From assembly GCA_024278075.1 (NCBI GenBank), contig JAJRTW010000073.1:1-49592 (forward strand): a stretch of DNA of 49,592 nucleotides, in the 5' to 3' direction. The notes under the pieces are model-generated. The model ran no database searches and had not been told where the DNA came from. It was given only the letters and a program-made list of their open reading frames with translations. Shown here one piece after another: positions 1 to 27,347 of this stretch. The translations under genes were made by a program, and so were the position numbers. This DNA comes from Bacteroidota bacterium. GTDB taxonomy: Bacteria; Bacteroidota; Ignavibacteria; Kapaibacteriales; UBA2268. Numbering within the stretch: the first letter of the stretch is position 1; every line of letters begins with the position of its first letter.

Positions 1-560
1 GAAGTGAGCAAAGCGAGCAGGGGGTTGTCCTACAATCTGCAAGGCATAAGGGCATAATAAATCCATTTCCTTGCACTTTCTAATTGAATAGTTTTCGTAA
101 TTACTATAACAATAAACATTTAGTACTTTTTGAGGGTAATCTAATTAGTTTTTTTTCATAAAACGTGCTTTTTTAAATCATGGCACGCCAGTTGCAATTA
201 GAAGGTATAAATGTTTAATATGTATATAAGAATTGTTCTTTCTAAATTAGTCATAACTAAAGTAATATTTCAAAGTTGATTGCAACAACGGTTAACACTA
301 AAGTAACTTTCAGTTAATTCATTTTCATTAACATCATTTTTTGTTGGCTGAATTTGCACTAATAGTTAGGTTGCAAATTGCTATAATGAAGTTCTTTACA
401 ATGTTCTAATTCTCAACTGCTTAGAAATACAAATAGAATATTTCTAACTATAGTTAGAGCCTTTCGCATAAGGCTCATTTAATCACCGTTTTATGGTTTT
501 TTTTAAACTTATATATAGATTCTCTAATTGTTTTTTTTCACTTTATTATAGGAGACAGTG
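1..560. other. AT-rich non-coding leader region
   Basis: No convincing gene lies in these bases. Frame 1 is open from base 1 to a TAA at 55-57, so the first 57 bases could be the tail of a gene cut by the window edge, but 18 codons are too few to judge. The rest is very AT-rich and ends in the ribosome binding site GGAG at 551-554 of the cytochrome gene. A TATAAT hexamer at 382-387 lacks a well-spaced -35 partner, so I do not call a promoter from it. Confidence 0.5.
444..476. promoter_or_regulatory. Palindrome plus hairpin upstream of the cytochrome operon
   Basis: Bases 444-457 form a perfect 14-bp palindrome (CTAACTATAGTTAG), the shape expected of a site for a dimeric regulator. It is joined directly to a 7-bp hairpin, GAGCCTT (457-463) pairing with AAGGCTC (470-476) around a 6-base loop. 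The position, about 85-115 bases before the start codon at 561, fits an operator or 5' leader structure. Function is inferred from position and symmetry only. Confidence 0.35.
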
Positions 561-1199
561 ATGAAGTATCTTAAATTATCACTACTGATTGTTCTTGTAA
601 TGGTTGTATGCGCCAGATTTAGCTATACAACTATTGTAGGATCAGCACACGACCTGAAGGCAAAGTCATATACCGACGAAGTATGTAATGTATGCCATAC
701 GCCTCACAATGCAAATACAACTGTATCAGATGCGCCATTGTGGGACCACACGCTTGCAACTACTTCTTACGGGCTTTACAGTTCGAGCACGTTGGACGCT
801 TCGATGGGCCAGCCCGATGGCACTTCAAAATTATGCCTGAGCTGCCATGACGGTTCGGTTGCAGTCGATAACTTCGGCAGCTCTTTAGGGGGCGCTGACG
901 CTAATGATATAATATCTGGCGATGCACTTATCGGAACAACGCTGGCAGATGACCATCCGGTATCTTTCATTTATAATGCTGGACTTGCAACGAGTGACGG
1001 TGAGCTTACAGATCCAACAACAGCAAACTCGGATTATGAAGGAACCGGCACAATCGAAGGAACTATGTTGTTTGGTACGGCAGGCTCAAAAACAATGGAA
1101 TGTGCAACATGCCACGATGTGCATGATCCGACTAACATTCCATTTTTGAGAGCATCAAATACAGCAAGTGCTATGTGCCTTACTTGCCATATTAAATAA
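561..1199 (+). CDS. Secreted tetraheme cytochrome c
   Basis: The protein has 212 residues, an N-terminal hydrophobic signal segment and four CXXCH heme-binding motifs (CNVCH, CLSCH, CATCH, CLTCH), so it should be a periplasmic or exported electron carrier. The first motif is followed by TPHN and the third by DVHD, as in doubled-CXXCH cytochromes. An in-frame GTG lies at 558, but the GGAG at 551-554 is spaced six bases from the ATG at 561, so I prefer that ATG. It is the first gene of a long same-strand cytochrome cluster. Two hairpins right after it suggest that part of its transcription ends there, which would make it more abundant than the genes downstream. Redox partner and localisation are inferred; the heme motifs are directly visible. 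Confidence 0.88.
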   Translation: MKYLKLSLLIVLVMVVCARFSYTTIVGSAHDLKAKSYTDEVCNVCHTPHNANTTVSDAPLWDHTLATTSYGLYSSSTLDASMGQPDGTSKLCLSCHDGSVAVDNFGSSLGGADANDIISGDALIGTTLADDHPVSFIYNAGLATSDGELTDPTTANSDYEGTGTIEGTMLFGTAGSKTMECATCHDVHDPTNIPFLRASNTASAMCLTCHIK

Positions 1200-1222
1200 A
1201 TGGTGGCAAACCATTTATTTAA
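1192..1222 (+). terminator. Terminator-like hairpin overlapping the cytochrome stop codon
   Basis: A 13-bp perfect stem (1192-1204 pairing with 1210-1222) closes a 5-base loop and is followed by a T-rich stretch. The stem is AT-rich, so its strength is uncertain. It includes the stop codon of the tetraheme cytochrome gene. Confidence 0.5.
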
Positions 1223-1246
1223 GTTTATTTCTAAATAACAATAAAA

Positions 1247-1269
1247 TGGGGCGATTAAATATCGTCCCA
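1247..1269 (+). terminator. Second terminator-like hairpin
   Basis: TGGGGCGAT (1247-1255) pairs with ATCGTCCCA (1261-1269) over 9 bp with one G-U wobble, around a 5-base loop. An AAAA run precedes it and TTATTT follows. It lies only 12 bases before the first possible start codon of the next gene, so it could act as an attenuator as well as a terminator. Confidence 0.55.
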
Positions 1270-1281
1270 TTATTTACAATA

Positions 1282-2358
1282 ATGAATATAGAAATGACAT
1301 ATAAATACTTAAAATCATCGTGCGGTTTTATAGCAATTGCATTAATACTTCTGTCTTGTTCATCGGATGCAACGAAAAAGAAAAATGTACTTGTATTTCC
1401 ATCGCCGCCGTCTCCGCCAAAGATTCAATACTTGACGAGCATAAGCAGTTCGAGAGACATAACAGGCCAAAGATCCGGATTCGAAAGATTGTTCCTGGGC
1501 AAAAGGAAATCCATACCGATTAAGAAACCGTATGGATTAAGCATATTTGGTGGAAATATATTTGTCTGCGACACGCAAGCCGACGCAATTGAAGTAATCG
1601 ACCTTGAAGCCAAGGATTTCTATTACTTCTATCCGGTTGGGAGCGGAAAGCTAAAGAAACCGATGAATTGTGCTGTCGATGCCGACACAGTGTTATATGT
1701 AGTTGACGTGAGCAGAAAGGATATAACCGCCTTTAGCAAAGACGGCAATTTGGTTGGGAAATATGGTGGCGAAGAATTAATAAAACCAATAGATGTATTT
1801 ATCCATGACGACAAAGTATGGGTATCCGACATCGATGGCCACAGGATTCGTGTTTATGATAAAGAAACCCGCGAGTTGCTATTTTCGTTCCCGGAAACCG
1901 ATGACAAAGAAGACGAGGAATTCCTGCATGCTCCAACAAATATTACTCTTGCAAAAGGCAAGATATACATCACGGATTTTCTTGATTTTCATGTTAAGAT
2001 TTTTGATTTAAAGGGAAATTTCTTAAAAACAATAGGCGGTTTGGGGCAAAATCTCGGCCAGTTTTCGCGTCCGAAAGGGGTGGCCGTGGACAGGGACGAG
2101 AATTTATATGTTGTCGATGCCGCATTTGATAATGTACAGATATTTGATAAAGACGGGCGGCTTTTAATGTTTTTCGGGGGCACTTATATTGGCCCCGGTT
2201 ATATGTGGCTGCCGGCTACGATATACATAGATTACGACAATTTGGACTACTTCAGAGAATATGTTGACGAAAAATTCAACCTGAAATATTTGATTTTTGT
2301 AACAAATCAATATGGCCCCGATAGAATCAGCATTTACGGCTTTGTAGATCCGAAGTAA
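1282..2358 (+). CDS. NHL-type beta-propeller lipoprotein
   Basis: The protein is about 358 residues. A basic N-terminus and a hydrophobic stretch end in LLSC, a lipobox, so it is probably lipid-anchored. The rest shows repeated blades of the NHL / six-bladed beta-propeller type, each with a pattern like IYITDFLDFHVKIFD or LYVVDAAFDNVQIFD separated by about 40-45 residues. Such propellers serve as protein-docking platforms; there is no heme motif or visible catalytic motif. It sits between two cytochrome genes and upstream of the predicted outer-membrane barrel, which suggests a structural part of the electron conduit. The open frame extends upstream to 1168 inside the previous gene, but the lipoprotein signal fixes the true start at ATG 1282 or ATG 1294. 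Neither has a clear Shine-Dalgarno site. Confidence 0.8.
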   Translation: MNIEMTYKYLKSSCGFIAIALILLSCSSDATKKKNVLVFPSPPSPPKIQYLTSISSSRDITGQRSGFERLFLGKRKSIPIKKPYGLSIFGGNIFVCDTQADAIEVIDLEAKDFYYFYPVGSGKLKKPMNCAVDADTVLYVVDVSRKDITAFSKDGNLVGKYGGEELIKPIDVFIHDDKVWVSDIDGHRIRVYDKETRELLFSFPETDDKEDEEFLHAPTNITLAKGKIYITDFLDFHVKIFDLKGNFLKTIGGLGQNLGQFSRPKGVAVDRDENLYVVDAAFDNVQIFDKDGRLLMFFGGTYIGPGYMWLPATIYIDYDNLDYFREYVDEKFNLKYLIFVTNQYGPDRISIYGFVDPK

Positions 2359-2387
2359 CGATTTGAAAATCTAATTAGAAGATTGGC

Positions 2388-2942
2388 TTGCTAAAAAGTA
2401 TAGTTAGAATATTTGGTGCAATACTTATTGTGAGCATTTACTCATGCTCGCCGGAAGAGAAGTACGACGCATTGTCTTTCTTCTTAGACGGTGTGCCGGA
2501 GCCAGGAGCAGAAGGCTTGGATACTTTAATCTCAGATACTACGAAATTTGCATCGTCGGCATCAGCCCGTAACCGTGTAAGGGCAAAAGTATACTACCAC
2601 CCCCCTTATAAAGACAAGGAATGCCCGGAATGTCATGTAAGATCGCAAGGCAACAGGCTCAGGGAGCCGATGCCGGGGCTGTGCTACCAATGCCACGATG
2701 ATTTCGCAGATGAATTCGCTTTCGTTCATGGCCCCGTTGTATCGGGGTTTTGCACCCAGTGCCATAATCCGCATACATCTAAATATAAGAAGCTGATGTT
2801 GCGCGAAGGCCAGGAGGTTTGTCTTTACTGCCATCTAAGGTCGGATGTTTTTGCCGGCGAAGACCACGAAGGTATCGATGATACCATTTGCTGGGAATGC
2901 CACAATCCACATGGTGGCGAAGACAGATTTATAATGAATTGA
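2388..2942 (+). CDS. Pentaheme cytochrome c lipoprotein
   Basis: The protein has 184 residues. It begins at a TTG codon, preceded by AGAAG, and has a lipoprotein signal ending in SIYSC, so it is probably anchored to a membrane by lipid. Five CXXCH motifs are present: CPECH, CYQCH, CTQCH, CLYCH and CWECH. Three are followed by NPH or similar, the doubled-CXXCH arrangement also seen in the larger cytochrome two genes downstream. It starts 29 bases after the propeller gene and ends 36 bases before the predicted outer-membrane barrel gene. By analogy with MtrA-like partners it could sit at the periplasmic mouth of that barrel, but this is inferred from gene order only. Confidence 0.85.
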   Translation: MLKSIVRIFGAILIVSIYSCSPEEKYDALSFFLDGVPEPGAEGLDTLISDTTKFASSASARNRVRAKVYYHPPYKDKECPECHVRSQGNRLREPMPGLCYQCHDDFADEFAFVHGPVVSGFCTQCHNPHTSKYKKLMLREGQEVCLYCHLRSDVFAGEDHEGIDDTICWECHNPHGGEDRFIMN

Positions 2943-2978
2943 CCGAGGGATGTTTGAATTCTTTGCAATTGTTCAGCT

Positions 2979-5018
2979 ATGAAAACATTTCATAAAATAT
3001 TGTTATTGATTTTTCTTTTGACAGTAACCAATACGACTGCTTTCGGTTTCGGTTTCGGATTTGGATTCAAGGCCGGAAGCAAGAATAATGAAAGTATTGG
3101 AAGAGGTGTGGGCAGCGGTGCGCTCTTTTCTATAGGCCCATGGCATATCAACAATATCAATGGCAAGTTAATGCTTCAGGGCTACTACCAGTCGATGACC
3201 ACATCTCTAAAAGGCGGCTTTAGCGATGCGCCAGTTGTATCCTCATTCATGGGTAATTTGAATCTGACAAGCAATAGCGTAGTTTGGCACCCCAAATTCA
3301 TGTCGATCGATTTAGACGCAAATTATAATCCCAACGCATTAAAGCAAACCTATAATATAACTCCGAATAATTCGCAATCATTAACAGCCGAAAGCATTAG
3401 GGCAAGGGTTTCTTTTTTCAACCAGCTGCCTGTAAATTTAGTGCTCACCAGCTCGTTCGGCCATGGATACACGAGCCGTGATAACTTCTCTGACTTTGAG
3501 TCCTTTCGCAGTAGCCATGGGGCATTTTTGCAAATCAGAAATTCAATATTGCCGATTACATTAGGCGCCAACACAAGCAAATGGGAAGAGAAAGAATTGC
3601 AAACCAGCCGAAATTCGTTCAACGAGCAAATTGGCTATAACCTGAACTTTAAAAAGCAGTTCGGCCAATATGACAAAACAACCTTTAAGTATACTTATGA
3701 AGACTTTTCAAGGCGACTGATGGTTGAACCGGTAGGCCTAAGGAACAGAATAACAAGGATTGATTTCAATAATAATCTTTTTATCGACTCGACAAAGGGT
3801 AGCTCCCTTATGAGCCATGTGAATTTTATTAATTCGAAAGGGTCATACGAAACCAAAGGGATCAATGCTTTCGAAAAATTATCAATAGTATTGCCGGAGG
3901 GCTTCAAAATAGTCACGGATTATCAATTTACAAGAGATGAGAATTACGGCAATATTGACACTCGCAATCAAATAAACGGACAGATTGATCATCAGCTCTA
4001 TCGCAGCCTGAATACTTTCGTTAGCTATTCGGTTCAGGATATTAACAATACCGGATATGACGAAGCGGGCAATACCATTAGAGCGGGTTTTAATTATAAC
4101 AAACTGATTCCCAGCGGGCTGCTTCGCCTTAATTATAGTTATAGCAAACTTACCACTGCCAGGAAAACAAAAGATATATCGAGGTTTTATAGAAAAGAAG
4201 AGCATGTTTTAGATGATTCCGGGATTGAATTCTTAGATAATCCTTATGTAAATATTGGTTCTGTCAGAGTAATGGACGAATCGCTTACGATTGTCTATGT
4301 TGAAGGAATTGATTATTTACTAATCCCAAGCCCGGGGGGTGAATACCTGGAAATCCGGCGGCTGCCGGGCGGCATGATAGCAGAGGGCCAAACTGTGTTT
4401 ATCGATTACGAGTCCACAAGGAATCTTCCATATTCATTCGGATCGCTGAATCATAATTTCGGTGGCAGAATCATATTATTCGATAGGGTAATCGAAGCAT
4501 ATTATTCCGGAGTCGAAAGAAATTTTTCGGATGTTGTCAATCCCGAAGCCAATGTATTTAAAGTAATATCTCAAAGTATCTACGGTTTTAAATTTAATTA
4601 TAATGATATTTCGGGCGGTGCCGAAATTGATATATTGGAATCGAATATCATACCCTATAGTTCAACAAGATTCTTTGTAAATTATTTTGATAATATTTCC
4701 AATGGCCTTAACTTCTCGCTTAACGCATCTTATAAAGACACTAAATTAACAGAAGTGAATCAATCCTATCAATCGGCTTCCGTATCGGCAAGCGCAAACT
4801 ACCAGCTCAACAATAAAACCAATGTCAAGATTAATTCGGGATATTCTTATCAACGATGGATCGACAGAGGAATGAATGTATTTAATACAAGAGGAGAAAT
4901 AACTTATAAATACTTACAAATTTTCTTAACTTTGGGCGTTCAATATTTTGATCGGGATTATTATACCGAGAAAGTAAATTTCCAGGATGTTTTCTTAAGA
5001 ATTGAGCGAAGGTTCTAA
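2979..5018 (+). CDS. Predicted outer-membrane beta-barrel of a porin-cytochrome conduit
   Basis: The protein has 679 residues. A cleavable signal peptide is followed by a long run of alternating polar and hydrophobic segments rich in Tyr, Phe, Asn and Ser, with no hydrophobic helices, and the last residue is Phe (…RIERRF), all typical of an outer-membrane beta-barrel. The size suits a barrel of 20 or more strands, in the range of MtrB/PioB-type porins, although I see no clear sequence match to those families. It lies between a pentaheme lipoprotein and a large multiheme cytochrome, the gene order expected of a porin-cytochrome electron conduit. The signal region carries an odd run of Phe-Gly dipeptides. 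The barrel call is fairly safe; the conduit role is an inference from neighbours. Confidence 0.7.
   Translation: MKTFHKILLLIFLLTVTNTTAFGFGFGFGFKAGSKNNESIGRGVGSGALFSIGPWHINNINGKLMLQGYYQSMTTSLKGGFSDAPVVSSFMGNLNLTSNSVVWHPKFMSIDLDANYNPNALKQTYNITPNNSQSLTAESIRARVSFFNQLPVNLVLTSSFGHGYTSRDNFSDFESFRSSHGAFLQIRNSILPITLGANTSKWEEKELQTSRNSFNEQIGYNLNFKKQFGQYDKTTFKYTYEDFSRRLMVEPVGLRNRITRIDFNNNLFIDSTKGSSLMSHVNFINSKGSYETKGINAFEKLSIVLPEGFKIVTDYQFTRDENYGNIDTRNQINGQIDHQLYRSLNTFVSYSVQDINNTGYDEAGNTIRAGFNYNKLIPSGLLRLNYSYSKLTTARKTKDISRFYRKEEHVLDDSGIEFLDNPYVNIGSVRVMDESLTIVYVEGIDYLLIPSPGGEYLEIRRLPGGMIAEGQTVFIDYESTRNLPYSFGSLNHNFGGRIILFDRVIEAYYSGVERNFSDVVNPEANVFKVISQSIYGFKFNYNDISGGAEIDILESNIIPYSSTRFFVNYFDNISNGLNFSLNASYKDTKLTEVNQSYQSASVSASANYQLNNKTNVKINSGYSYQRWIDRGMNVFNTRGEITYKYLQIFLTLGVQYFDRDYYTEKVNFQDVFLRIERRF
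3041..3069 (+). repeat. In-frame hexanucleotide repeat (Phe-Gly) after the signal peptide
   Basis: Repeats of TTCGGT/TTTGGA at 6-base spacing encode four to five Phe-Gly dipeptides just after the hydrophobic core of the barrel's signal peptide. Changes in repeat number would keep the frame and only lengthen or shorten this segment. Confidence 0.6.
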
Positions 5019-5024
5019 TACCTT

Positions 5025-7097
5025 ATGATCAAAAGGGCATTAATATTAATATTAGTATTAATAGGAATAGGAATAGGAATAGTAATAGGAATTGCCTCGT
5101 TAGCAATCTTAGCTTTTCCAAAGCCCCAAGAAGATTCCGAAGAATTGTCTTGCACATTGTCAGGCTGCCACGAAGACTATATCAAATATAAAGTGCTGCA
5201 CTCGCCAAGCCAGGATGATTGCACTAACTGCCACGAAGCCAGCGGCAGCCAGCACCCGGCCACCCCCGGCAATGAGTTTGCATTAACCTCCGCCCAACCG
5301 GAACTATGCTACGATTGCCATGACCCAAAGAATGAAAAGAAGGTTGTCCATGCGCCGGTTTCAGATGGTGATTGCACCACCTGCCATTCGCCCCACGGAT
5401 CGTCGCAAAATTTTATGCTGCTGCAGGCCGATGATGAGTTTCTGTGCTATAACTGCCACGACTTCGATACATCCAAAAAAAATCGTAAGCACAGCCCTTT
5501 TGAAGAAAAGGAATGTATGAACTGCCACAATCCTCATCAGTCCGACAATGCGTCTTTATTAAATCTGCCCTCGCCGGATTTATGTTTCGAATGCCATGAT
5601 AAATTAGAGCAGGAAAACCTGCATCCGCCCTACGAAGAGGATTGTATTAATTGCCACAATCCGCATACCTCGCCGGTTGAGTTTTTGCTGAACGAACATC
5701 AACCCGAGCTATGCTATGAATGCCACGACAGAAAAGACGAGCAAAAAGTTGTTCACGGGCCGGTTCTGGAAGGCAAATGCACCTTGTGCCACAACCCGCA
5801 CGGAGCCGACAGGGAAAATTTTCTGACTAACGATGATACTAAAATGTGCTTGAATTGCCATAGAAGAACAATTAAAGTGAAAGACAGGAAAATCCCAAAC
5901 ATAAAAAGGAAAATGAGCCGTAAGTATCCACACGACCCCGTTGAGAATGACGGATGCCTGACATGCCATTTCCCGCATGGCTCCGAATATAGCAACCTTC
6001 TGAATGCTAAGTTCGAAACAACAAGCTATGTGTTGGGTGCCGAGCAATCATTCGAATTATGTTTCGGCTGCCATGATTCCGAAATGTTCGAAAAAGACAG
6101 CACCTCTACGGCAACAAATTTCAGGGACCAAACACGCAATCTTCACTATCTTCATATTAATCTAAACAAAGCCAGAAATTGTATTTTATGCCATGACGTG
6201 CATGGCTCTGATTCACCGTACCTAATAAGAGATGAAGTTACATTCGGCAAATGGCAACTCCCGATTAATTATACTGCTTCGGATAATGGCGGTTCCTGTT
6301 TCCCGGGCTGCCATGCCCGCAAAGATTATAATCAGTATATTGCCAAAGTCTTTGTGGACGGAAGCATTAAGGGAATCATTAATATTACTGATACTAAGGG
6401 TATGCCCGAGGTGCCTACAATAACTATCAGAATCAGAAATACTAAAAAAACTTTTGACAAAACATTGTCGATCAAAGCCGGATCGGAATTCGAATTGGGC
6501 GATATCCCCCCCGGCGATTACATGGCAATGCTGGATCAGGCGCAGATAAATGATTTGCAGCTAATGGCAAATACTTTAAATCGGGTGTTCACTATTAAAA
6601 AATCGACAATTGGCGATTTGGTTGAAAACCTGAACTTCGAACTAAAACCCGTGCCGATAGCCGTTAAAGGGGATGAAATAGATAACCTGCCGGACCCGGA
6701 AGGCCTGGCCGAGATGATTGCCGACCTGAAGCAATATAAAAATAAAACACTAAAGAACTATACTAAATCATTTTATTTCAAGCCCTTCAGAAGTGCGGCG
6801 CTAAGCAATGAAGCAAAGAAGTACTTAAAAACAATTGCCGAATTTATGAAGAAAAATCCGAAAACCGAAATAGGAATTATTGGCCATACCGATAATTTTG
6901 GTGCATTGATGGAAAACCAATCACTTTCCGATAAAAGAGCTAAAATAATTTTAGATTATATGATTGAAAACGGAATTGCCAAAAGCAGGCTCCACCAAAG
7001 GGGGCTGGGAGCCCGCAGCCCGGTGGCCAGCAATGATACTCCCGAAGGAAGTAATAAGAACAACCGGGTTGAAATCAGGCTGTTCGAAGCTGAATAG
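5025..7097 (+). CDS. Multiheme cytochrome c (15 candidate hemes) fused to an OmpA domain
   Basis: The protein has 690 residues. Residues 5-31 form a hydrophobic signal or membrane anchor. Residues 43-430 carry 13 CXXCH motifs plus two unusual ones, CX4CH (C43-H49) and CX3CH (starting at C425), many in doubled-CXXCH repeats with NPH after the motif. Residues about 440-560 look like a small beta-sandwich. The last 110 residues form an OmpA-like domain with the typical GHTDN and NRVEIRL motifs, which in known families binds peptidoglycan. The cytochrome would therefore be held at the cell wall and could bridge the periplasm. The gene starts 6 bases after the barrel gene, which suggests translational coupling. 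The domain order is visible in the sequence; the bridging role is inferred. Confidence 0.85.
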   Translation: MIKRALILILVLIGIGIGIVIGIASLAILAFPKPQEDSEELSCTLSGCHEDYIKYKVLHSPSQDDCTNCHEASGSQHPATPGNEFALTSAQPELCYDCHDPKNEKKVVHAPVSDGDCTTCHSPHGSSQNFMLLQADDEFLCYNCHDFDTSKKNRKHSPFEEKECMNCHNPHQSDNASLLNLPSPDLCFECHDKLEQENLHPPYEEDCINCHNPHTSPVEFLLNEHQPELCYECHDRKDEQKVVHGPVLEGKCTLCHNPHGADRENFLTNDDTKMCLNCHRRTIKVKDRKIPNIKRKMSRKYPHDPVENDGCLTCHFPHGSEYSNLLNAKFETTSYVLGAEQSFELCFGCHDSEMFEKDSTSTATNFRDQTRNLHYLHINLNKARNCILCHDVHGSDSPYLIRDEVTFGKWQLPINYTASDNGGSCFPGCHARKDYNQYIAKVFVDGSIKGIINITDTKGMPEVPTITIRIRNTKKTFDKTLSIKAGSEFELGDIPPGDYMAMLDQAQINDLQLMANTLNRVFTIKKSTIGDLVENLNFELKPVPIAVKGDEIDNLPDPEGLAEMIADLKQYKNKTLKNYTKSFYFKPFRSAALSNEAKKYLKTIAEFMKKNPKTEIGIIGHTDNFGALMENQSLSDKRAKIILDYMIENGIAKSRLHQRGLGARSPVASNDTPEGSNKNNRVEIRLFEAE
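5060..5093 (+). repeat. Hexanucleotide repeat in the N-terminal anchor of the OmpA-cytochrome
   Basis: AGGAAT repeats in tandem (with one variant) encode the Gly-Ile run in the membrane anchor of the downstream cytochrome. It is a second in-frame hexamer repeat in the leader part of an adjacent gene. Confidence 0.6.
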
Positions 7098-7110
7098 ATT
7101 TTTTTCTGTT

Positions 7111-7200
7111 ATTGAATGAGCAATAAGAATATTGAATGAACAATAAGACTATGGCATAAACAATAAGACTATGGCATAAACAATAAAGAAATGCTAAATA
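7111..7200 (+). repeat. 20-bp tandem repeats between the OmpA-cytochrome and ccmF
   Basis: Four units of 20 bp (7111-7130, 7131-7150, 7151-7170, 7171-7190) plus a half unit share the core CAATAAG. Bases 7141-7160 and 7161-7180 are identical. The array fills nearly the whole gap before the heme lyase gene and has no spacers, so it is a minisatellite and not a CRISPR array. Confidence 0.75.
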
Positions 7201-7221
7201 TCCATATTATAACCCTTGCCA

Positions 7222-9504
7222 ATGCCCGGTGACATAATCATATATGCTCTGTTTACTTTGACGGTTGTTTCATCCGTTTTCTACTTTTACTCTTTTTTCG
7301 GGAACAAGAGCCTATTGAATTATTCCAGAAGGATGTTCTACACAGTAGCGATTGGTTTGATGATCGTTTCTGTCTTTTTCTGGGTAAATATATTCACACA
7401 TATCTTCCAATATACATACATTTGGGAAAATTCGTCGAAAGGCCTTCCCAATTATTTTCTTTTTGCTTCATTCTTCGCGGGCCAGCTGGGTTCATATCTG
7501 CTGTTGGCATTAATTATTGCTGTTTTCGGGTTATTGATACTGCCCGAATTGAGGCGAAACAATAATGAAGCGTTGCCATTAGGTATTTTTTCGCTCATTT
7601 TGGTGTTCCTGGTTTTTATTCTCGTAGCCAAAAGCCCGCTCGAATTTGTTTGGGACACATTTAGTACCGATAATATTCAAGCCGGTTTTATTCCCGAGCA
7701 GGGCAAAGGGTTAAATCCGATATTCGAAAACTTTTGGATTACAGTCCACTCGCCTGTTTTGTTCATTGGCTATGCTGCCGTAGCCGTGCCGTTTGTTCTG
7801 TCTGTCTCGGGATTGATCAGGAAGGAATATACCAAATGGATTGAATCCGCCTTGCCCTGGGCATTATTTGCAGCAGCTGTTTTGGGCTTGGCAATATTGA
7901 TGGGCGGTTTGTGGTCTTATGAAACACTCGGCCAGGAGGAGTTCTGGAGTTGGGACCCGGTTGAGAATGCGTCCTTAATTCCATGGCTGGCTGTTATAGC
8001 TTTGACCCACACACTGAAAGTACAAAACAATACCGGACGGCTAATAAAAACTAACATCGGATTGGCCATTTTATCATTTATTCTTGTTCTGTACGCAGCC
8101 TTTCTGACTCGAAGCGGGATTCTGAGCGAAACATCAGACTATACGTTTTTGGATCCGGGCGATTTTGTTCATAGCCTGCTCGCTATTATGCTATTAGTAT
8201 TTTCAGTTATTGGCTTTTCTGTTTTTATTCTCAGATTCAGGGATATCCCGACAAATAAAACTCAATCCAAAGCTTTATCGAAGGAGTTTTTCATTGCCAT
8301 AGGCTCATTATTACTATTGTCATCTGCTCTGATAATTTTCATTGCAACAACCTGGCCAGTGGTATCGGCAGAACTGAGCTATGGGAAAATATCCGTCGAG
8401 AAAACTTTTTTCAATAGCTGGAACATACCGATTTTTTCCGCTATTATGTTCATAGCCGCCATATCACTGTATTTAAAGTGGGGCGAAGCGCCGGCAGAAG
8501 AGATTAAACATAAGCTTGTCCGGCCAATTGCGCTATTGATAGTATGCGTGGCCACGGTTGCAATCGCGGGCATTTCGGACTTAATGCCGATACTTCTGAT
8601 TTCCCTATCACTTTTTTCAATTATTATTAATGTCTCGTTTCTATTAAGCAATATCAGGCGGAAATTCCTGTCCTCCGGCATTTATTTATCCCACTTGGGC
8701 CTGTCAATATTAATTCTTGGAATAGTAGCAAGCGGGGAATATTCCAAATCAGAGCATCTGAACTTGAGGATAAATCAATCGCAGGAGGTTTTTGGCCATA
8801 GATTGACTTTTATCGGCAAGCAGCAAATAGAACACGAATTAATCGACAGAAAGAAAACGAAATATCTTATCAAAACAGAAACAAACGGCAGCGAATCAAT
8901 AATTGATGCAATAACATTTTGGAGCGATTTCAACCAAAGGCAACTGCCTTATAATATCCCCGGAATTCATGATTACCTGTATTACGACCTGTATATAACC
9001 ACAAAGTCGACGGATTTTGTCAGCAACTTAAAAACCTTTACAATCCGAATCGGTGAAAATATCTTTCTCGAACCCGACAGCTCGATTTTTATAACATTAT
9101 TGGATTATGACTTTTTCCACTCGACAGCAGTGCGAAACAAACCGAAGGCGATGGGGACAGTAATCAGGTGCGCCACCGCCAATACGGATTTCATCGATAC
9201 TTTGTTTGCCGACTTAAGCGCCCCGGCAACGGAAGAAAATCTGATGTGGGAAAATATTGACGGCACTAATATCGATATTTCATTCATCAGGCTGAATCCC
9301 AACCACGACGACATCGAATTATCAGAAGCGGTTTTCGCACTAAAGCAAACAAGCGCATCTCCGCCGAAATTTGTTGAAATATTATCGATAGAGGCAACGA
9401 AAAAGCCATTAATAATTTTCGTATGGCTTGGAGTGATTATGATTATTGCCGGATTTCTTCTTGCTCTTCTCAGGCATAAGAAGATAAGAGATATTTCGAT
9501 ATGA
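7222..9504 (+). CDS. ccmF: CcmF-type cytochrome c heme lyase
   Basis: The protein has about 760 residues and many membrane helices. It contains the tryptophan-rich heme-handling motif of the CcmF/NrfE/CcsA family (EEFWSWDPVENASLIPWL), preceded by GGLWSYE. HSP (in WITVHSPVL) and ALTHTL give conserved His residues of the CcmF type. A soluble region near residues 500-720 and a last helix complete the CcmF pattern. CcmF joins heme to the cysteines of apocytochromes c on the periplasmic side. No other Ccm gene is visible, so this copy may be dedicated to the cytochromes around it, as NrfE is for nitrite reductase. Start: an in-frame TTG at 7216 precedes ATG 7222; neither has a good ribosome binding site. 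Confidence 0.9.
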   Translation: MPGDIIIYALFTLTVVSSVFYFYSFFGNKSLLNYSRRMFYTVAIGLMIVSVFFWVNIFTHIFQYTYIWENSSKGLPNYFLFASFFAGQLGSYLLLALIIAVFGLLILPELRRNNNEALPLGIFSLILVFLVFILVAKSPLEFVWDTFSTDNIQAGFIPEQGKGLNPIFENFWITVHSPVLFIGYAAVAVPFVLSVSGLIRKEYTKWIESALPWALFAAAVLGLAILMGGLWSYETLGQEEFWSWDPVENASLIPWLAVIALTHTLKVQNNTGRLIKTNIGLAILSFILVLYAAFLTRSGILSETSDYTFLDPGDFVHSLLAIMLLVFSVIGFSVFILRFRDIPTNKTQSKALSKEFFIAIGSLLLLSSALIIFIATTWPVVSAELSYGKISVEKTFFNSWNIPIFSAIMFIAAISLYLKWGEAPAEEIKHKLVRPIALLIVCVATVAIAGISDLMPILLISLSLFSIIINVSFLLSNIRRKFLSSGIYLSHLGLSILILGIVASGEYSKSEHLNLRINQSQEVFGHRLTFIGKQQIEHELIDRKKTKYLIKTETNGSESIIDAITFWSDFNQRQLPYNIPGIHDYLYYDLYITTKSTDFVSNLKTFTIRIGENIFLEPDSSIFITLLDYDFFHSTAVRNKPKAMGTVIRCATANTDFIDTLFADLSAPATEENLMWENIDGTNIDISFIRLNPNHDDIELSEAVFALKQTSASPPKFVEILSIEATKKPLIIFVWLGVIMIIAGFLLALLRHKKIRDISI

Positions 9505-10236
9505 AGATTATCGGAGCCTGATGCCCAACACTTTGCATCTGCCTTGCCTGTGATTGCACACCCAAGAACCTGCCTTGCCATAGCCGGTGTTGGATATTCC
9601 CGCCAAACGGACGCCGGAAGATATGCTGCTTATATAAAGCAACGGGCAAAACTTGCACCAACTGATATGCAGGTATTTTCCCGCTTTATTGATAAATTGC
9701 CTAACCTGCATTATTCATAAAAAAAACCAAAGATACCTGACAGGCAAATGCTTGCTTATATTATTATATTCTCAATTGTCAGCAATATAAAACAGCCCTA
9801 TTATCTGTCTAACTCATATATCTCTAAACAGATACTGAACCTGCGAGGAAAGGCCCGAAATATTCAGGTTGTGTTCGTTTCCCGGATCAGTAGTTTAGAG
9901 AAATAAACTTTTAATTTCTACATTCCTATTCATTAAATATTAATTAATTGTATCGATATAAAAAAAATTGGTAAATTTGATTAATTTAGTATATTCTAAA
10001 ATTATAATCTAAATTATCGGGCAATAAAAACCCGCTGAAGTAAATACTGCGTCATACGGCAAGACCCGGCGAATATGCCGGCACTTATACGATATTTGGC
10101 GATTTCTTCAACGAGTTAGAACCCGAGGCTGCTAATTCAGCCGGTTGCTTTATCTTGCGGACTGCAACCGGTGCATTAACCATACATTTGCGTTAAATTA
10201 TTAAAATAGTTTCAATAAATTTAAAGGGCTTAATAC
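9505..10236. other. Long non-coding gap between ccmF and the Rieske gene
   Basis: No open frame here looks like a gene; the - strand frames near 9508-9711 overlap each other and lack any protein-like pattern. The first 200 bases are GC-richer than the AT-rich middle. An inverted repeat, CCGGTTGC (10141-10148) with GCAACCGG (10164-10171), lies 65 bases before the Rieske start and could be a regulatory hairpin. A GAGGAAA string near 9844 resembles a piece of RNase P RNA but the rest of that RNA is not there. The Rieske-cytochrome b group probably has its own promoter in this gap. Confidence 0.5.
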
Positions 10237-10686
10237 TTGGAAAATAAACCCAACACTGACAAAACCCGCCGAACTTTTATAAACTGGATGCTTGGAATAG
10301 GAGCAGCCGGATGGTTAGGATCGGTGATATTTCCGCTAATCAAGTATATCATCCCACCGAAAATGCCAGAAGCAAAAGTTACTTCTGTGAAAGTCGGTGA
10401 TGTAGCAGACTTCGCACCCGGTTCCGGCACTTTATTCAAATACGGCACCAAACCGGGAATCATTATCTGCCATGATAATGGCGGTTTTTCTGCTTTTTTC
10501 GCTACATGTACTCATCTCGACTGCACTGTACAATTCAAAGAGGACGAGCGGATAATATGGTGCGCCTGCCATAATGGGAAATATGACCTGCACGGCAAGA
10601 ATATTGCAGGCCCGCCCCCAAAGCCGCTTGAAGAGTTCAAACTGGTGGTTCAAGGCGAAGAGATTTATGTCACTAAGGAGTCCTGA
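10237..10686 (+). CDS. Rieske iron-sulfur protein of a cytochrome bc-type complex
   Basis: The protein has 149 residues and an N-terminal membrane helix (about residues 16-40) preceded by a Lys/Arg-rich stretch with RRTF, consistent with Tat export. The 2Fe-2S site is complete: box I CTHLDC (91-96) and box II CACHNG (109-114), giving ligands C91, H93, C109 and H112 and a disulfide between C96 and C111. It accepts electrons from quinol at the cytochrome b subunit. Box II has Ala where most proteins have Pro and Asn-Gly where Gly-Ser is usual; the Ser to Gly change would be expected to lower the redox potential, which fits a low-potential (menaquinol) chain. It starts at TTG with AAAGGG upstream and is directly followed by cytochrome b. 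Confidence 0.93.
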   Translation: MENKPNTDKTRRTFINWMLGIGAAGWLGSVIFPLIKYIIPPKMPEAKVTSVKVGDVADFAPGSGTLFKYGTKPGIIICHDNGGFSAFFATCTHLDCTVQFKEDERIIWCACHNGKYDLHGKNIAGPPPKPLEEFKLVVQGEEIYVTKES

Positions 10687-10688
10687 TA

Positions 10689-11768
10689 ATGTCAACTTTT
10701 TCTGAAAAGTTATTTAAATGGTTAGAGAGCAGGTTTGGTATTCAAAAATTTATTGATTTTGCTAATAAAAAGACCGTACCAAAAGGCAGGCATGCCGTAT
10801 GGTATTATTTTGGCGGCGTCAGCCTTTTCCTGTTTATTATACAAGTCCTTTCCGGAATACTTCTTCTGCTTTATTTTAGAGTCGGAGAAGAATCATCCTA
10901 CGAAAGTGTTCGTTTTATTGTTGCCCAGGTTGAGTTTGGCTGGCTAATAAGGTCTGTTCATAGCTGGTCAGCCAACCTTATGGTTCTTGCTGCTTTCATT
11001 CACATGTTCAGCGTATTTTTCACCAAGGCATTCAGGAAACCGCGCGAGCTGACCTGGTATTCCGGTTTCATATTATTGCTCTTGTCGGTAACATTCGGAT
11101 TTAGCGGATACTTGCTGCCCTGGAACGAATTAGCATTTTTCGCCACAAAGGTAGGCACTGATATGATTGGCTCGGTGCCTTATGTAGGCGAGCAATTGTT
11201 GCTTATTGTTCGCGGCGGCGAAGACGTAACCGGTGCTACTGTGTCAAGGTTCTTCGGACTTCACGTAGCTGTATTGCCGGGTATTTTCGTAGTATTCCTA
11301 ACGATCCACTTAATGTTTGTTCAGCTCCAGGGCATGAGCAAGCCGGAGAATTGGGACAGCCTTCCGGCCGAAAAAAGAAAGACGATGCCATTTTTCCCCA
11401 ATTTCGTGCTGCGCGACCTGTTGTTGTGGTTGATAATATTGAACGTTCTGGTAATTCTTGCAGTATTCCTCCCGATGGAATTGGGCATGAAAGCAGATGC
11501 TTTTGCTGCTGCTCCCGCCGGAATTAAACCAGAATGGTATTTTATGTTTATGTTCCAGACCCTAAAGTATATTCCGCCTCATGTATTGTTCCTCGAGGGT
11601 GAATTCTTTGGTATAATAATGTTTTCTTTGGGAGGATTGATTTGGTTCTTGGTGCCGTTTTGGGATGCTAAGACCAAGGCCGGCCGTCGCAACCGTATAG
11701 TTAATATTGTTGGCCTTTTTGTAATCATGTTTATAATCGTAATGTCGATCATCGGATTTTCCGTTTAA
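10689..11768 (+). CDS. Cytochrome b, fused form, of a Rieske/cytochrome b complex
   Basis: The protein has 359 residues and about eight membrane helices, combining the b6-like N-terminal and subunit IV-like C-terminal halves in one chain. The four heme-binding histidines are H91 and H105 (13 residues between) and H192 and H207 (14 residues between); the second spacing is the cytochrome b6 type. PEWY (281-284), the quinol-oxidation motif, is present. It oxidises quinol and passes one electron to the Rieske protein and one across the membrane. There is no cytochrome c1 or f gene; two multiheme cytochrome genes follow instead and are the likely electron acceptors. The start lies 2 bases after the Rieske stop codon, so the two are probably translationally coupled. 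Confidence 0.93.
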   Translation: MSTFSEKLFKWLESRFGIQKFIDFANKKTVPKGRHAVWYYFGGVSLFLFIIQVLSGILLLLYFRVGEESSYESVRFIVAQVEFGWLIRSVHSWSANLMVLAAFIHMFSVFFTKAFRKPRELTWYSGFILLLLSVTFGFSGYLLPWNELAFFATKVGTDMIGSVPYVGEQLLLIVRGGEDVTGATVSRFFGLHVAVLPGIFVVFLTIHLMFVQLQGMSKPENWDSLPAEKRKTMPFFPNFVLRDLLLWLIILNVLVILAVFLPMELGMKADAFAAAPAGIKPEWYFMFMFQTLKYIPPHVLFLEGEFFGIIMFSLGGLIWFLVPFWDAKTKAGRRNRIVNIVGLFVIMFIIVMSIIGFSV

Positions 11769-11790
11769 TTAAAATTTATCGAGTAGATTA

Positions 11791-13269
11791 ATGAGAAAAA
11801 ATAAAAGCATAAGTTTGTTAATATTCCTTTTTTTCTTTGCATATTTTTCGGCGTATAATATTGGCAATGCCATTGATGAATGCTATAGATGCCATTTGCA
11901 GGATGTGGAAGACAGGCCGGGCCTGCTTTATGGCGGCGATATTCATTATAAAAAAGGCATATCCTGCGCCGATTGCCATGGCGGCGATAAAAGACAGGAC
12001 GATATGGACGTGGCGATGAGCAAGCGAAAAGGATTCAAAGGCGTGCCCGGGCAGGAAGACATTGTAGGCCTTTGCATGAGCTGCCATTTCGATAAGAAGA
12101 AAATGGAGAGCTTCGGCTCGAAGATACCAATATCCCATTTATCGGATTACGAGCATAGCGTTCATGGCAAATCCGACGGGGCTACTTGCATAAGCTGCCA
12201 TAATGTGCATAAAATAAAAAGGGTGACTAACCCAGCATCGGCGGTATATCCGTTGAACGAAGTTAAGACCTGCTCGAAATGCCACAGCGATGCAACCTTT
12301 ATGAGGAATTATAAGCCTTCGCTGCCAACCGACCAATACGAAAAATATAAAACAAGTGTGCATGGCATAATTAATGCAAAGGGCGATACCAAAGCAGCCA
12401 CTTGCTCGGATTGCCATTCTTCGCATGGAATATTTTCGTCGAAAGACCCGAGGTCTTCGGTTAATGTATTCAATATACCAAAAACTTGCTCGGAATGCCA
12501 CAGCCATAAATCATACATGAGGCGTTATAATATTCCTATAGATCAATATGACGAGTATGCCAAAAGTGTTCACGGCAAGGCACTGTTTGAGAAGAACGAC
12601 CCGTCGGCACCGGTGTGCAATGATTGCCACGGCAACCATGGTGCGGTTCCGGTGGGTTTGAAATCAATTGCTCATGTTTGCGGAAATTGCCATGCCCTTA
12701 ATGCCGATTTGTTTTCCAAAGGCCCGCATCAAAAGGCTTTTGAAGAACAAGACATCCCGCTTTGTGTGGCTTGCCACGGCAATCATTACATTGTCCATCC
12801 GGATGACAAGATGCTGGATGTTAACAGCGAGCATTCCAAATGTATGGAATGCCATGAAGTAGGCGACAAGGGGTATAAATCGGCCAAAGCTATGAATGCA
12901 GCTATCGATTCTATTGAAATTAATATGAATATTGCCAACAAGCTGCTCGAAGAGGCCGAAAGCAAGGGAATGGACGTTTCAGATGCAAGATTTAATATGA
13001 ATGAGATTCCGCAGTACCTGATTAAGGCCAGGACAATGACCCATACTGTAAATGTTGATTTGGTGAACGAAACCATCCAGCCCGGCAAAGAAATTCTCGA
13101 CAAGGTAAAGGCCACCGGCTATGAAGCTATTGAAGAATTCTATTTCAGGCGTTTGGGCCTTGGCGCCTCCACTTTGATTATTACGATTCTTACCGTTGCA
13201 TTATATTTGAAGATCCGGAATATTGAAAAAAGGCAAAAAGATGAAAAGGAAATTGCCGAAGGGCGATAA
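11791..13269 (+). CDS. Undecaheme cytochrome c with C-terminal membrane anchor
   Basis: The protein has 492 residues with a signal peptide, eleven CXXCH motifs (CYRCH, CADCH, CMSCH, CISCH, CSKCH, CSDCH, CSECH, CNDCH, CGNCH, CVACH, CMECH), an alpha-helical region (about residues 365-445) and a single membrane helix near residue 460 with a short basic cytoplasmic tail. Repeated SVHGK-like segments between the motifs probably supply distal histidine ligands. It should face the periplasm while tethered to the inner membrane. Placed directly after cytochrome b, it is the best candidate to replace cytochrome c1 as acceptor from the Rieske protein. Motifs and anchor are visible; the partner is inferred. 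Confidence 0.88.
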   Translation: MRKNKSISLLIFLFFFAYFSAYNIGNAIDECYRCHLQDVEDRPGLLYGGDIHYKKGISCADCHGGDKRQDDMDVAMSKRKGFKGVPGQEDIVGLCMSCHFDKKKMESFGSKIPISHLSDYEHSVHGKSDGATCISCHNVHKIKRVTNPASAVYPLNEVKTCSKCHSDATFMRNYKPSLPTDQYEKYKTSVHGIINAKGDTKAATCSDCHSSHGIFSSKDPRSSVNVFNIPKTCSECHSHKSYMRRYNIPIDQYDEYAKSVHGKALFEKNDPSAPVCNDCHGNHGAVPVGLKSIAHVCGNCHALNADLFSKGPHQKAFEEQDIPLCVACHGNHYIVHPDDKMLDVNSEHSKCMECHEVGDKGYKSAKAMNAAIDSIEINMNIANKLLEEAESKGMDVSDARFNMNEIPQYLIKARTMTHTVNVDLVNETIQPGKEILDKVKATGYEAIEEFYFRRLGLGASTLIITILTVALYLKIRNIEKRQKDEKEIAEGR

Positions 13270-13326
13270 AACATATAATTTTATCTCATTACCAAATTTC
13301 GAGGCTGTGTGAAAAGGCCCCGAGGC

Positions 13327-13352
13327 TGTCATTCTGAACTTGTTTCAGAATC
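13327..13352. repeat. Copy of a dispersed repeat end
   Basis: These 26 bases are identical to the left end of the MITE-like element at 16697 (sequence around TCATTCTGAACTTGTTTC). It is a partial copy only and lies in the gap between two cytochrome genes. Confidence 0.7.
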
Positions 13353-13385
13353 TATAATCCGGTATTCATGCGGGTTCTATATGTC

Positions 13386-13408
13386 AAGTCAGGTGTAACA
13401 CCTGACTT
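13386..13408. repeat. Triloop hairpin repeat
   Basis: A 10-bp perfect stem, AAGTCAGGTG (13386-13395) with CACCTGACTT (13399-13408), closes a 3-base loop (TAA). A run of seven T begins 12 bases later, too far for a standard terminator. The shape matches other short-loop hairpins at 17244 and 17340, so it looks like a member of a dispersed hairpin family. Confidence 0.6.
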
Positions 13409-13467
13409 ACAGGGAATAATTTTTTTAATAATACTATTTTCGAATCATAAAAAGAAAGAAAGTACGC

Positions 13468-15504
13468 ATGGCAAAATTTGTTGAAAAATTCAAAAAGGCA
13501 AGCAGGTCGAAGAAATTGCTGATAACAATATCGATAGCGATTCCTGTAGTGCTATTGCTGTCATTTGTTTCTGTCCAATTCACATCAAGGCCTTCGTTTT
13601 GCTCAACTTGCCACTATATGGAGCCTTACTACCAAAGCTGGGCCACATCGAGCCACAACAACGTTGACTGTGTGAAATGCCACTTCCCGCCGGGAATTGC
13701 CGGCACAATCAGAGGAAAGCTGGAAGGCTTGGTTCAGGTCGTTAATTATATGGCCAGCAGTTATATCAGGCGCAAGCCCTGGGCCGAAATCGACAATGCC
13801 TCGTGCCTTCAAAGCGGGTGCCATGATACCCGAATGCTTAAGGGCAAGGTTAAGTTTAAGAACAATGTTGTGTTCGACCATGATTCGCACCTGGGCGAAA
13901 TGAGGCGGGGCAAATCCCTTAGATGCACAAGCTGCCATTCGCAGATTGTTCAGGGCGACCACATGGTCGTTACCGAGACGGCCTGCTTTTTGTGCCATTT
14001 CACGCAAAGCGATATTTTGGAGGAAAATGAATTCGAAAAATTATCCGATTGCACCACCTGCCACGACTGGAATTCCATTCCGAAAGATGAAATGGCCAAT
14101 TTCAGATACGACCATACGGATGTAGTGAGCCATGAAATTGATTGCAAACAATGCCACCAAAATACTATCATCGGCGACGGGTTTGTACCAAAGGAAAATT
14201 GCTATTCTTGCCACTTTAATAACACCCGGCTGGACAAGTACGACGACGTACACTTGCTTCACAGCGAACATATCGAGAAGAACAAGATAGAATGCATTCA
14301 ATGCCATTTGAGAATTCAGCACAAGGTGCAGAAATTAACAGCCGATGCCGAATTGGAATGCACCACCTGCCATACGGAAGAGCATAATGAACAACTGAAG
14401 CTGTTCACAGGAAAAGTATACCCGGGCGTCGAGGGGATTCCAAATGCTATGTTCGAGGCGGGGCTTAATTGTGCCAGCTGCCACTTATTCCACGAGCACA
14501 TGATTGGCAGCGGCGGAGCTTCGGTCAAAACCGCCAATCAAAAGTCGTGCGAAAGCTGCCATGGCGAAGGTTATTCCCACTTATTGAAACTTTGGGAGGA
14601 GTCGGCTGATAAGAAACTGGCCGAGCTAAAAGGAGTTATTTCGCAAGTTGAAAAGGCCGTTGGCTCTGCTAAGATTAATAATAAGAAAGAGGTGAGATCA
14701 TACATCGACAAAGCAAAGCATGGCATGAATACTTTAGAAGTCGGCAAAGCAATTCATAATATGAAATATGCAGAGCTTCTGATTAAGAAAAGTTATGAAT
14801 ATCTGACAAATGCTTTGCGTGTGGGGAAAATAAACCTTAGAATTCCTGCCTATAAAGCATCAAAGGCCATTCCGAATGAATGTATGAATTGCCATACCGG
14901 AATTGATGAAATTACGCGAACTTTCGAGGGCATGACGCTTTCGCATAAAACGCATTATGTTGATCAGAATGTGAATTGCAACAATTGCCATTCGAATGCA
15001 AAAAGGCATGGCGAGGTTATTGTCAATAAACAAGGCTGCAATTCCTGCCACCATAAAAACGCCTATGATGTTAATTGCAAGAATTGTCACGAATCTGCAT
15101 TTGAAATTTATACCGGCGTTTATCTTGGGCATGATTCGCCCGATATTATGTTCGAAGCCGATGTTGAATGCACGGGCTGCCATCTGGACGGCAAACGCAT
15201 TGTTAGGCCAAAGGTTAATTCTTGTGCTTCATGCCACGACGACAGCTATGTGGCAACAGCCAAGGAGTGGCAAGCGGATGTGTTCAAAGGCCTTGAGGAA
15301 GTTCGGACTATCATTGATAAAATGAAACTTGCTTCCGATTTTATTTACACATTTAAGTTCAGGAAAATCGAAAACCAGGTTGTGAATGTAGAAAAATACT
15401 CCGCCGGGGGCCTGCATAATTATGAATTCACGATGGAACTTATTGAAGAAATGAAATCCGACTTGAAGAAATCGCAGGAAGTTAGTTCTGTCGATTCTAA
15501 TTAA
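13468..15504 (+). CDS. NapC/NirT-like multiheme cytochrome c with 18 candidate hemes
   Basis: The protein has 678 residues. A basic N-terminus and one membrane helix (about residues 16-38) lead into CSTCHYM (45-51), the CXXCH-x-M arrangement of NrfH/NapC quinol-oxidising hemes. In total there are 17 CXXCH motifs plus one CX4CH (in CLQSGCH). The domain order is: NapC-like head, a first block with the CX4CH and nine CXXCH motifs, a helical insertion of about 100 residues, a second block of six CXXCH motifs, and a helical tail. The helical insertion resembles that of the 11-heme protein upstream. It could take electrons directly from menaquinol or from the Rieske/b complex and carry them far into the periplasm. 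The size and heme number are well beyond the usual 4-5 hemes of NapC/NrfH. Motif counts are direct; the role is inferred. Confidence 0.87.
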   Translation: MAKFVEKFKKASRSKKLLITISIAIPVVLLLSFVSVQFTSRPSFCSTCHYMEPYYQSWATSSHNNVDCVKCHFPPGIAGTIRGKLEGLVQVVNYMASSYIRRKPWAEIDNASCLQSGCHDTRMLKGKVKFKNNVVFDHDSHLGEMRRGKSLRCTSCHSQIVQGDHMVVTETACFLCHFTQSDILEENEFEKLSDCTTCHDWNSIPKDEMANFRYDHTDVVSHEIDCKQCHQNTIIGDGFVPKENCYSCHFNNTRLDKYDDVHLLHSEHIEKNKIECIQCHLRIQHKVQKLTADAELECTTCHTEEHNEQLKLFTGKVYPGVEGIPNAMFEAGLNCASCHLFHEHMIGSGGASVKTANQKSCESCHGEGYSHLLKLWEESADKKLAELKGVISQVEKAVGSAKINNKKEVRSYIDKAKHGMNTLEVGKAIHNMKYAELLIKKSYEYLTNALRVGKINLRIPAYKASKAIPNECMNCHTGIDEITRTFEGMTLSHKTHYVDQNVNCNNCHSNAKRHGEVIVNKQGCNSCHHKNAYDVNCKNCHESAFEIYTGVYLGHDSPDIMFEADVECTGCHLDGKRIVRPKVNSCASCHDDSYVATAKEWQADVFKGLEEVRTIIDKMKLASDFIYTFKFRKIENQVVNVEKYSAGGLHNYEFTMELIEEMKSDLKKSQEVSSVDSN

Positions 15505-26650: not shown

Positions 26651-27097
26651 TTAATCCTTCTTTTCTTCATCAACGGCCATCGGAATAGCTAAATTAGTCG
26701 AATAAGTATCCATTGGCAGTATAATCTGCTTGCCTGCCTGGTCGACTACGTTCAAAATAACAGGAGCTTTCATATTGGCTGTCATCATTGCTTTTTCGCC
26801 TCCCAGAGTGACAACAACAAACATCACCTCCGATTCGAGGTTGAATTCCTTGCCCGGTTCGTATTCAAGGTTAATATACCACGGGCTGAGCAAGGGAAAG
26901 CCAATTTCAGGTGTTTCAAGAGAAATCAACCATTTGAAAGGTACTGTTTCTTCTTCGCTGATCAAAACGAATTCCTTCAGATTTTCAAAACCAAGCAAGC
27001 CGTTTTCGAAGTTAAAAATATGTTTGGATTCGACCGTAATTTCGCCAAAATGAAGCGTCTTAATTTTTCTCGTCTCGGTATTTTCTGTTATTGCCAT
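26651..27097 (-). CDS. fliW: Flagellar assembly factor FliW
   Basis: The protein has 148 residues and matches the FliW family: LHFGEITV near the start, HIFNFENGLLGFENLKEFVLI, then LISLETPEIGFPLLSPW and the late segment MKAPVILNVVDQAGKQIIL. FliW binds CsrA and releases it when flagellin is bound, so flagellin export is coupled to flagellin translation. It lies 225 bases upstream of csrA on the same strand with a repeat element between them. No flagellin gene is in view. Confidence 0.95.
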   Translation of the reverse strand: MAITENTETRKIKTLHFGEITVESKHIFNFENGLLGFENLKEFVLISEEETVPFKWLISLETPEIGFPLLSPWYINLEYEPGKEFNLESEVMFVVVTLGGEKAMMTANMKAPVILNVVDQAGKQIILPMDTYSTNLAIPMAVDEEKKD

Positions 27098-27218
27098 AAA
27101 TTACACCCGGGATATGTTGAACATAACCACTTGGTTCAGTTCTATTGATTATAATAAATTCGAATAATTATTGGACTATCTCGCATCTATGCTGCGGTGT
27201 ATCGATTTAAAACCTGTA

Positions 27219-27270
27219 TTTAATAATTGCCGCAACCAGCGGGGGAAATATGCCCACAATGCGGAATTAA
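27219..27270. repeat. Dispersed 52-bp repeat upstream of fliW
   Basis: An inverted partner of 26471-26522, so the two copies bracket fliW. The core is GCCCACAATGCGG and CCGCAACCAGCGGGGG. It sits about 120 bases before the fliW start codon, in the gap to motB. Confidence 0.7.
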
Positions 27271-27347
27271 ATATAATAATTGATGTTATCGGTAATTGGA
27301 AAAATAAATTTAATCATTATTTTAATATGATGAAAATTAAAAAATAA

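Follow-up and report, generated by a model that had tools for sequence, protein, structure and literature searches.

The gene at positions 5025-7097 encodes an exported c-type cytochrome with 15 heme motifs that is fused to a beta-sandwich and to a C-terminal OmpA domain with an intact ligand pair, as both the sequence and the models show. It lies in the window, meaning the whole stretch of 49,592 nucleotides that was analysed (contig JAJRTW010000073.1), where it is the final cytochrome gene in a conserved cluster of an OmcE-like tetraheme cytochrome, an NHL lipoprotein, a pentaheme lipoprotein, a beta-barrel and the multiheme protein itself (Table 1). Because of this gene content the cluster looks like an OmcE-type nanowire/conduit locus. 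The reading favoured here, to which we give a probability of roughly 0.6, is that the fusion protein is the periplasmic heme wire of this cluster, with the C-terminal cassette of beta-sandwich and OmpA domain docking its outer end on peptidoglycan.

Table 1. Features of the fusion gene and of the cluster around it (window coordinates).
Feature	Position	Strand	Basis or remark
Tetraheme cytochrome, full-length homologue of the OmcE filament subunit	558..1199	+	7tfs E 3.8e-33; 9yuq E 3.2e-23
NHL beta-propeller, probable lipoprotein (LLSC box)	1168..2358	+	
Pentaheme lipoprotein cytochrome (IYSC box)	2388..2942	+	nearest PDB match also MtrA
Outer-membrane beta-barrel, about 28 long strands in model	2979..5018	+	AlphaFold2 pLDDT 83
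Fusion gene: 15-heme cytochrome, beta-sandwich and OmpA domain	5025..7097	+	690 aa, ATG start
N-terminal hydrophobic segment, residues 5-31, signal peptide or uncleaved membrane anchor	5037..5117	+	hydropathy; AlphaFold2 helix 2-30
Two adjacent in-frame hexanucleotide arrays, (ATTAAT)4.2 and (AATAGG)5.5	5039..5092	+	encode LILIL..GIGIGI part of the hydrophobic segment
Heme domain, residues 43-430, 15 heme motifs	5151..6314	+	profile best match MtrA chain 6r2q_A, E 6e-25
Beta-sandwich domain, residues 446-542	6360..6650	+	AlphaFold2 model; a 1081-aa protein encoded elsewhere in the genome has homologues of this and the OmpA domain at its C-terminus
OmpA peptidoglycan-binding domain, residues 579-688	6759..7088	+	Pfam; structure comparison
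Asp623, conserved peptidoglycan-ligand residue	6891..6893	+	
Arg638, conserved peptidoglycan-ligand residue, lost in other fusions	6936..6938	+	
CcmF/NrfE-type heme lyase	7216..9504	+	adjacent in relatives too

The 15 heme motifs comprise 13 of the CXXCH form, one CX4CH (CTLSGCH at residue 43) and one CX3CH (CFPGCH at residue 425). Across 2000 shuffles of the fusion protein, CXXCH arose by chance 0.07 times on average and twice at most, against the 13 observed. All 30 cysteines of the protein sit within heme motifs, the heme part holds 31 histidines where bis-His ligation of 15 hemes needs 30, and the Pfam family Paired_CXXCH_1 matches the protein with an E-value of 6e-76. The top match of the heme-domain profile in the PDB extends over ~215 positions of chain A of entry 6r2q, the Mtr complex, and we take this chain to be MtrA; the PDB file itself gives it the molecule name cystathionine beta-synthase. 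Judged by its sequence, the heme part is an MtrA homologue. The fusion protein shares with MtrA of MtrCAB this profile match and a gene that adjoins that of a large barrel, but differs from it in having 15 hemes instead of 10, as well as a beta-sandwich, an OmpA domain and an N-terminal hydrophobic helix. By heme number, and by a TIGR03508 score of 151.8 bits that lies below the cut-off of 192.2, it would fall outside the MtrA/DmsE decaheme family.

The beta-sandwich and the OmpA domain run on in frame from the heme part. The AlphaFold2 model has a helix at residues 2-30 and, at pLDDT values of about 84 and about 90 respectively, the beta-sandwich at 446-542 and a full OmpA fold at 579-688; the heme part was too poorly modelled for use, as is expected without heme. 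Motifs, Pfam and model thus agree with the initial annotation, which had described a 15-site heme chain, a small beta-domain and a C-terminal OmpA domain in one protein. That two genes had been joined by an assembly or sequencing error has a negligible probability: nothing was seen in its favour, and it is refuted by the recurrence of the same architecture in separate assemblies or contigs, at four further loci from three relatives whose genomes were assembled independently (one each in G020 and G104, two in G004).

Pfam OmpA (PF00691) covers residues 588-679 with 69.9 bits, against a curated cut-off of 27.2 (E 2.5e-19); the beta-domain alone gave nothing in the Pfam scan. The first structural match of the modelled OmpA domain is 3td5_A (Z 19.3, rmsd 1.9, 116 residues), an Acinetobacter OmpA domain with a bound peptidoglycan peptide. 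In OmpA and Pal domains an Asp and an Arg hold the diaminopimelate peptide, and both are present here as Asp623 and Arg638, 15 residues apart as in the OmpA family. The initial annotation had proposed modelling this fold and checking these two residues, whose absence would have refuted it, and both the fold and the residues were found. The tail is like the domains of OmpA, Pal and PorE in fold, score and ligand pair, and PorE has a beta-domain followed by OmpA in the same order, but the window's domain sits on a multiheme cytochrome and not on a barrel, a lipoprotein, or a motor or secretion part. Sequence and model together indicate that the tail is a canonical putative peptidoglycan-binding domain. 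No earlier report of a multiheme or c-type cytochrome joined to a peptidoglycan-binding domain was found in the literature searched, which hints that the domain pair may be new.

The cluster offers further evidence for the kind of system in which the fusion protein would work. Residues 6-213 of the tetraheme cytochrome, which opens the cluster and has four CXXCH motifs, align to OmcE (7tfs), and 9yuq is another deposited multiheme cytochrome that it matches. For the NHL open reading frame as listed, the first in-frame start is probably too far upstream. OmcE-type clusters carry NHL propellers and porin-like barrels, as this one does. The bacterium probably makes electron-conducting cytochrome nanowires. 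An OmpA-bearing cytochrome within an OmcE-type cluster was not found in the literature searched. The Uet cluster (uetA-J) of Tenderiales and Gallionella has an extracellular tetraheme, NHL proteins, a beta-barrel and an undecaheme cytochrome (PMC10734462, PMC12575090). Compared by description only, the window is similar in holding tetraheme, NHL and barrel genes together, and its relatives have an 11-heme protein in place of the fusion gene; it differs in the 15 hemes and OmpA tail of the fusion protein. A PPIase (UetB) and trihemes (UetDEG) were not among the open reading frames of 558-15504 in the Pfam scan, and a pentaheme lipoprotein is present instead, although genes upstream may lie on another contig. 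The cluster resembles both the OmcE cluster and the Uet set, and is not filed under Uet. The idea of a periplasm-spanning multiheme protein is shared with PCC3 of the Gallionellaceae, a long periplasmic cytochrome with 21-27 hemes that is proposed to reach across the periplasm next to a porin, and for which an OmpA domain is unmentioned (PMC10734462).

Elsewhere in the window, the gap that separates the fusion gene from the CcmF gene holds a tandem repeat with a 20-base unit and 3.8 copies (7110-7186). Positions 10237-15504 encode a Rieske protein, cytochrome b, an 11-heme cytochrome and a NapC/NirT-type cytochrome with 18 heme motifs in a row, a module that could be the inner-membrane, quinol-side electron supply. 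An SprA-type T9SS translocon of 2325 aa, together with proteins that carry Por secretion tails (39919-46896; 23055-24476; 28274-31774), suggests Bacteroidota, and FliW and MotB genes (26651-28124) make a flagellum probable in the source organism.

Within the same family, four genomes contain the complete run in the order OmcE, NHL, pentaheme, barrel, multiheme, at five loci (L016, L018, L019, L020 and L037), and the order also recurs in other families (L075, L076). The heme part was found in seven of the 54 genomes of the window's own family. Outside the family it has 11 or 15 hemes and ends soon after the last motif, without OmpA; a homologue in a genome of the same phylum, no closer (G436), has 13 hemes and a 102-residue tail. 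The OmpA-free homologues in other families adjoin the same or a similar cluster, and the OmpA tail is thus not required. Loci from other families of the class (L075:13276-15651 and L087:3729-6065) have the 15-heme gene followed by three OmcE-like paralogues in tandem, most of them with five heme motifs. A search of named genomes returned OmpA matches only, in Bacteroidales, Flammeovirgaceae and Flavobacterium, and plasmid records included none with 80 percent query coverage.

The OmpA tail was seen only in the window's own family, where five loci carry the fusion: those of the window, of G020 and of G104, and two in G004. Of the other members with the heme part, G012 retains a remnant of the tail (E 0.004), G008 lacks it, and in G009 the gene runs into the contig end. 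Asp623 is kept in all five fusions, but Arg638 is replaced by I, V, T and I in the four relatives' copies, leaving Arg in the window copy only, so wall binding is not conserved. Both residues are kept in 11 of 11 non-cytochrome copies of the cassette (the 1081-aa protein and ten family homologues), and the loss of Arg is therefore specific to the cytochrome-fused copies. The window and the other fusions share 41-51 percent identity in the heme core but only 20-23 percent in the beta-domain of the tail. The fusion is real but rare, and the gripping residue is lost, or the domain absent, in most relatives. Wall anchoring of the window's protein is plausible from its sequence and model, yet it is neither general nor required. 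Hence, of the claim that the wire is fixed to the wall, the natural reading of a canonical domain stands for the window copy and is weakened by the four fusions without Arg; the wider proposal of a general solution to how periplasmic cytochromes keep their position is not supported, given the OmpA-free homologues, the loss of Arg and the remnant or missing tails within the family.

Most likely, the cassette itself was taken over from large outer-membrane proteins encoded in the same family, and after that it was no longer needed in most descendants. Elsewhere in the same genome (G000, contig C51; L003, L106), a 1081-aa protein ends in a beta-sandwich and OmpA domain that are 28 percent identical to the whole of the fusion tail. 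Relatives of this protein are found across the window's family, and proteins of this type may be the source. The simplest account is one recruitment, kept working in the window lineage and relaxed elsewhere. In the tail tree 73 percent of bootstrap replicates separate the five fusions from the other sequences, a suggestive but not decisive grouping in which long branches meet; the heme-core and tail trees, with long branches meeting, neither reject nor resolve a single fusion origin. By BLAST the window tail is closer to the cassette of the 1081-aa protein than to the other fusions, which would fit a second, separate fusion and a slower-evolving tail equally well.

At the other end of the protein, residues 5-31 form a run of 27 residues without a charged or polar break. 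Its mean hydropathy over 19 residues (KD19) is 3.15, the highest among 18 homologues and also among its neighbours, compared with 1.7-2.3 for the signal peptides of the neighbours and 2.6 for the NapC-type anchor. In two of the five fusions (G020 and G104) a small-x-small (A-X-A-like) cleavage site is absent, and in most OmpA-free homologues the N-terminal segment ends in a cleavage site such as IQA or AFA. These features suggest an uncleaved inner-membrane anchor at the N-terminus of the fusion protein. Alternatively, the hydrophobic stretch, being coded by repeats, could be a signal peptide that has been expanded; growth of the repeats may account for its length, and the length of the arrays at 5039-5092 could vary by slippage.

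Under the favoured reading, electrons would enter from quinol oxidation at the inner membrane, travel along the 15 hemes to the conduit of pentaheme lipoprotein and barrel, and pass from there to an OmcE-like filament. The OmpA domain would bind the diaminopimelate stem peptide and so hold the wire at a fixed place under the conduit. Were the N-terminal helix also to remain in the inner membrane, a less strongly indicated step, the bridge would be fixed at two points. Such a trans-periplasmic wire, anchored in the inner membrane by its N-terminus, crossing the gap with its 15 hemes and clamped by its C-terminus to peptidoglycan under the OmcE-type conduit, is a tentative proposal that we regard as rather doubtful. 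Going by the dimensions of MtrA, 15 hemes at MtrA-like spacing would presumably reach roughly 12 nm. The electron wire of the initial annotation is borne out by the heme chain, although that annotation had missed both the membership of an OmcE-type nanowire cluster and the possible N-terminal membrane anchor.

The match to MtrA raises another arrangement, in which the heme part is an MtrA-like plug inside the upstream barrel and the OmpA tail ties the entire outer-membrane conduit to the wall. Upstream, the barrel gene stops 7 bases short of the fusion gene, and the barrel model is MtrB-sized and has MtrB among its structural matches, but this match (6r2q_B, Z 16.2) is tied with, and not above, those to many TonB receptors, and no PDB sequence match to the barrel was found. 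The pentaheme lipoprotein, in matching MtrA too, could itself be the plug. The C-terminal hemes of MtrA face outward in the Mtr complex, so a plug of this orientation would place the OmpA domain outside the cell, and because of this the arrangement is less likely; we consider it improbable.

It is also unlikely, in our estimation, that the OmpA tail, in decay or put to another use, plays no part at the wall, serving for example as a contact surface for the barrel or the lipoproteins, with the canonical residues of the window copy a leftover. Arg is gone from four of five fusions, one relative has a remnant and another no tail, and the beta-domains of the fusions are only 20-28 percent identical, one close pair apart, all of which speaks for this reading. 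The window copy, however, retains Asp, Arg and the surrounding motif, and the fold of its tail closely matches standalone peptidoglycan-binding domains.

It is an open question whether diffusing carriers or fixed wires take electrons across a wide periplasm. The relatives described here form a natural series within one cytochrome, from a canonical wall-binding tail through an Arg-less tail and a remnant to no tail, which makes the role of wall anchoring directly testable. OmcE-type clusters turn out to be common in the class, with an OmcE-like match in 33 of 391 genomes, and the present analysis places a cytochrome with a predicted cell-wall-binding domain in such a nanowire cluster of Bacteroidota-like bacteria.
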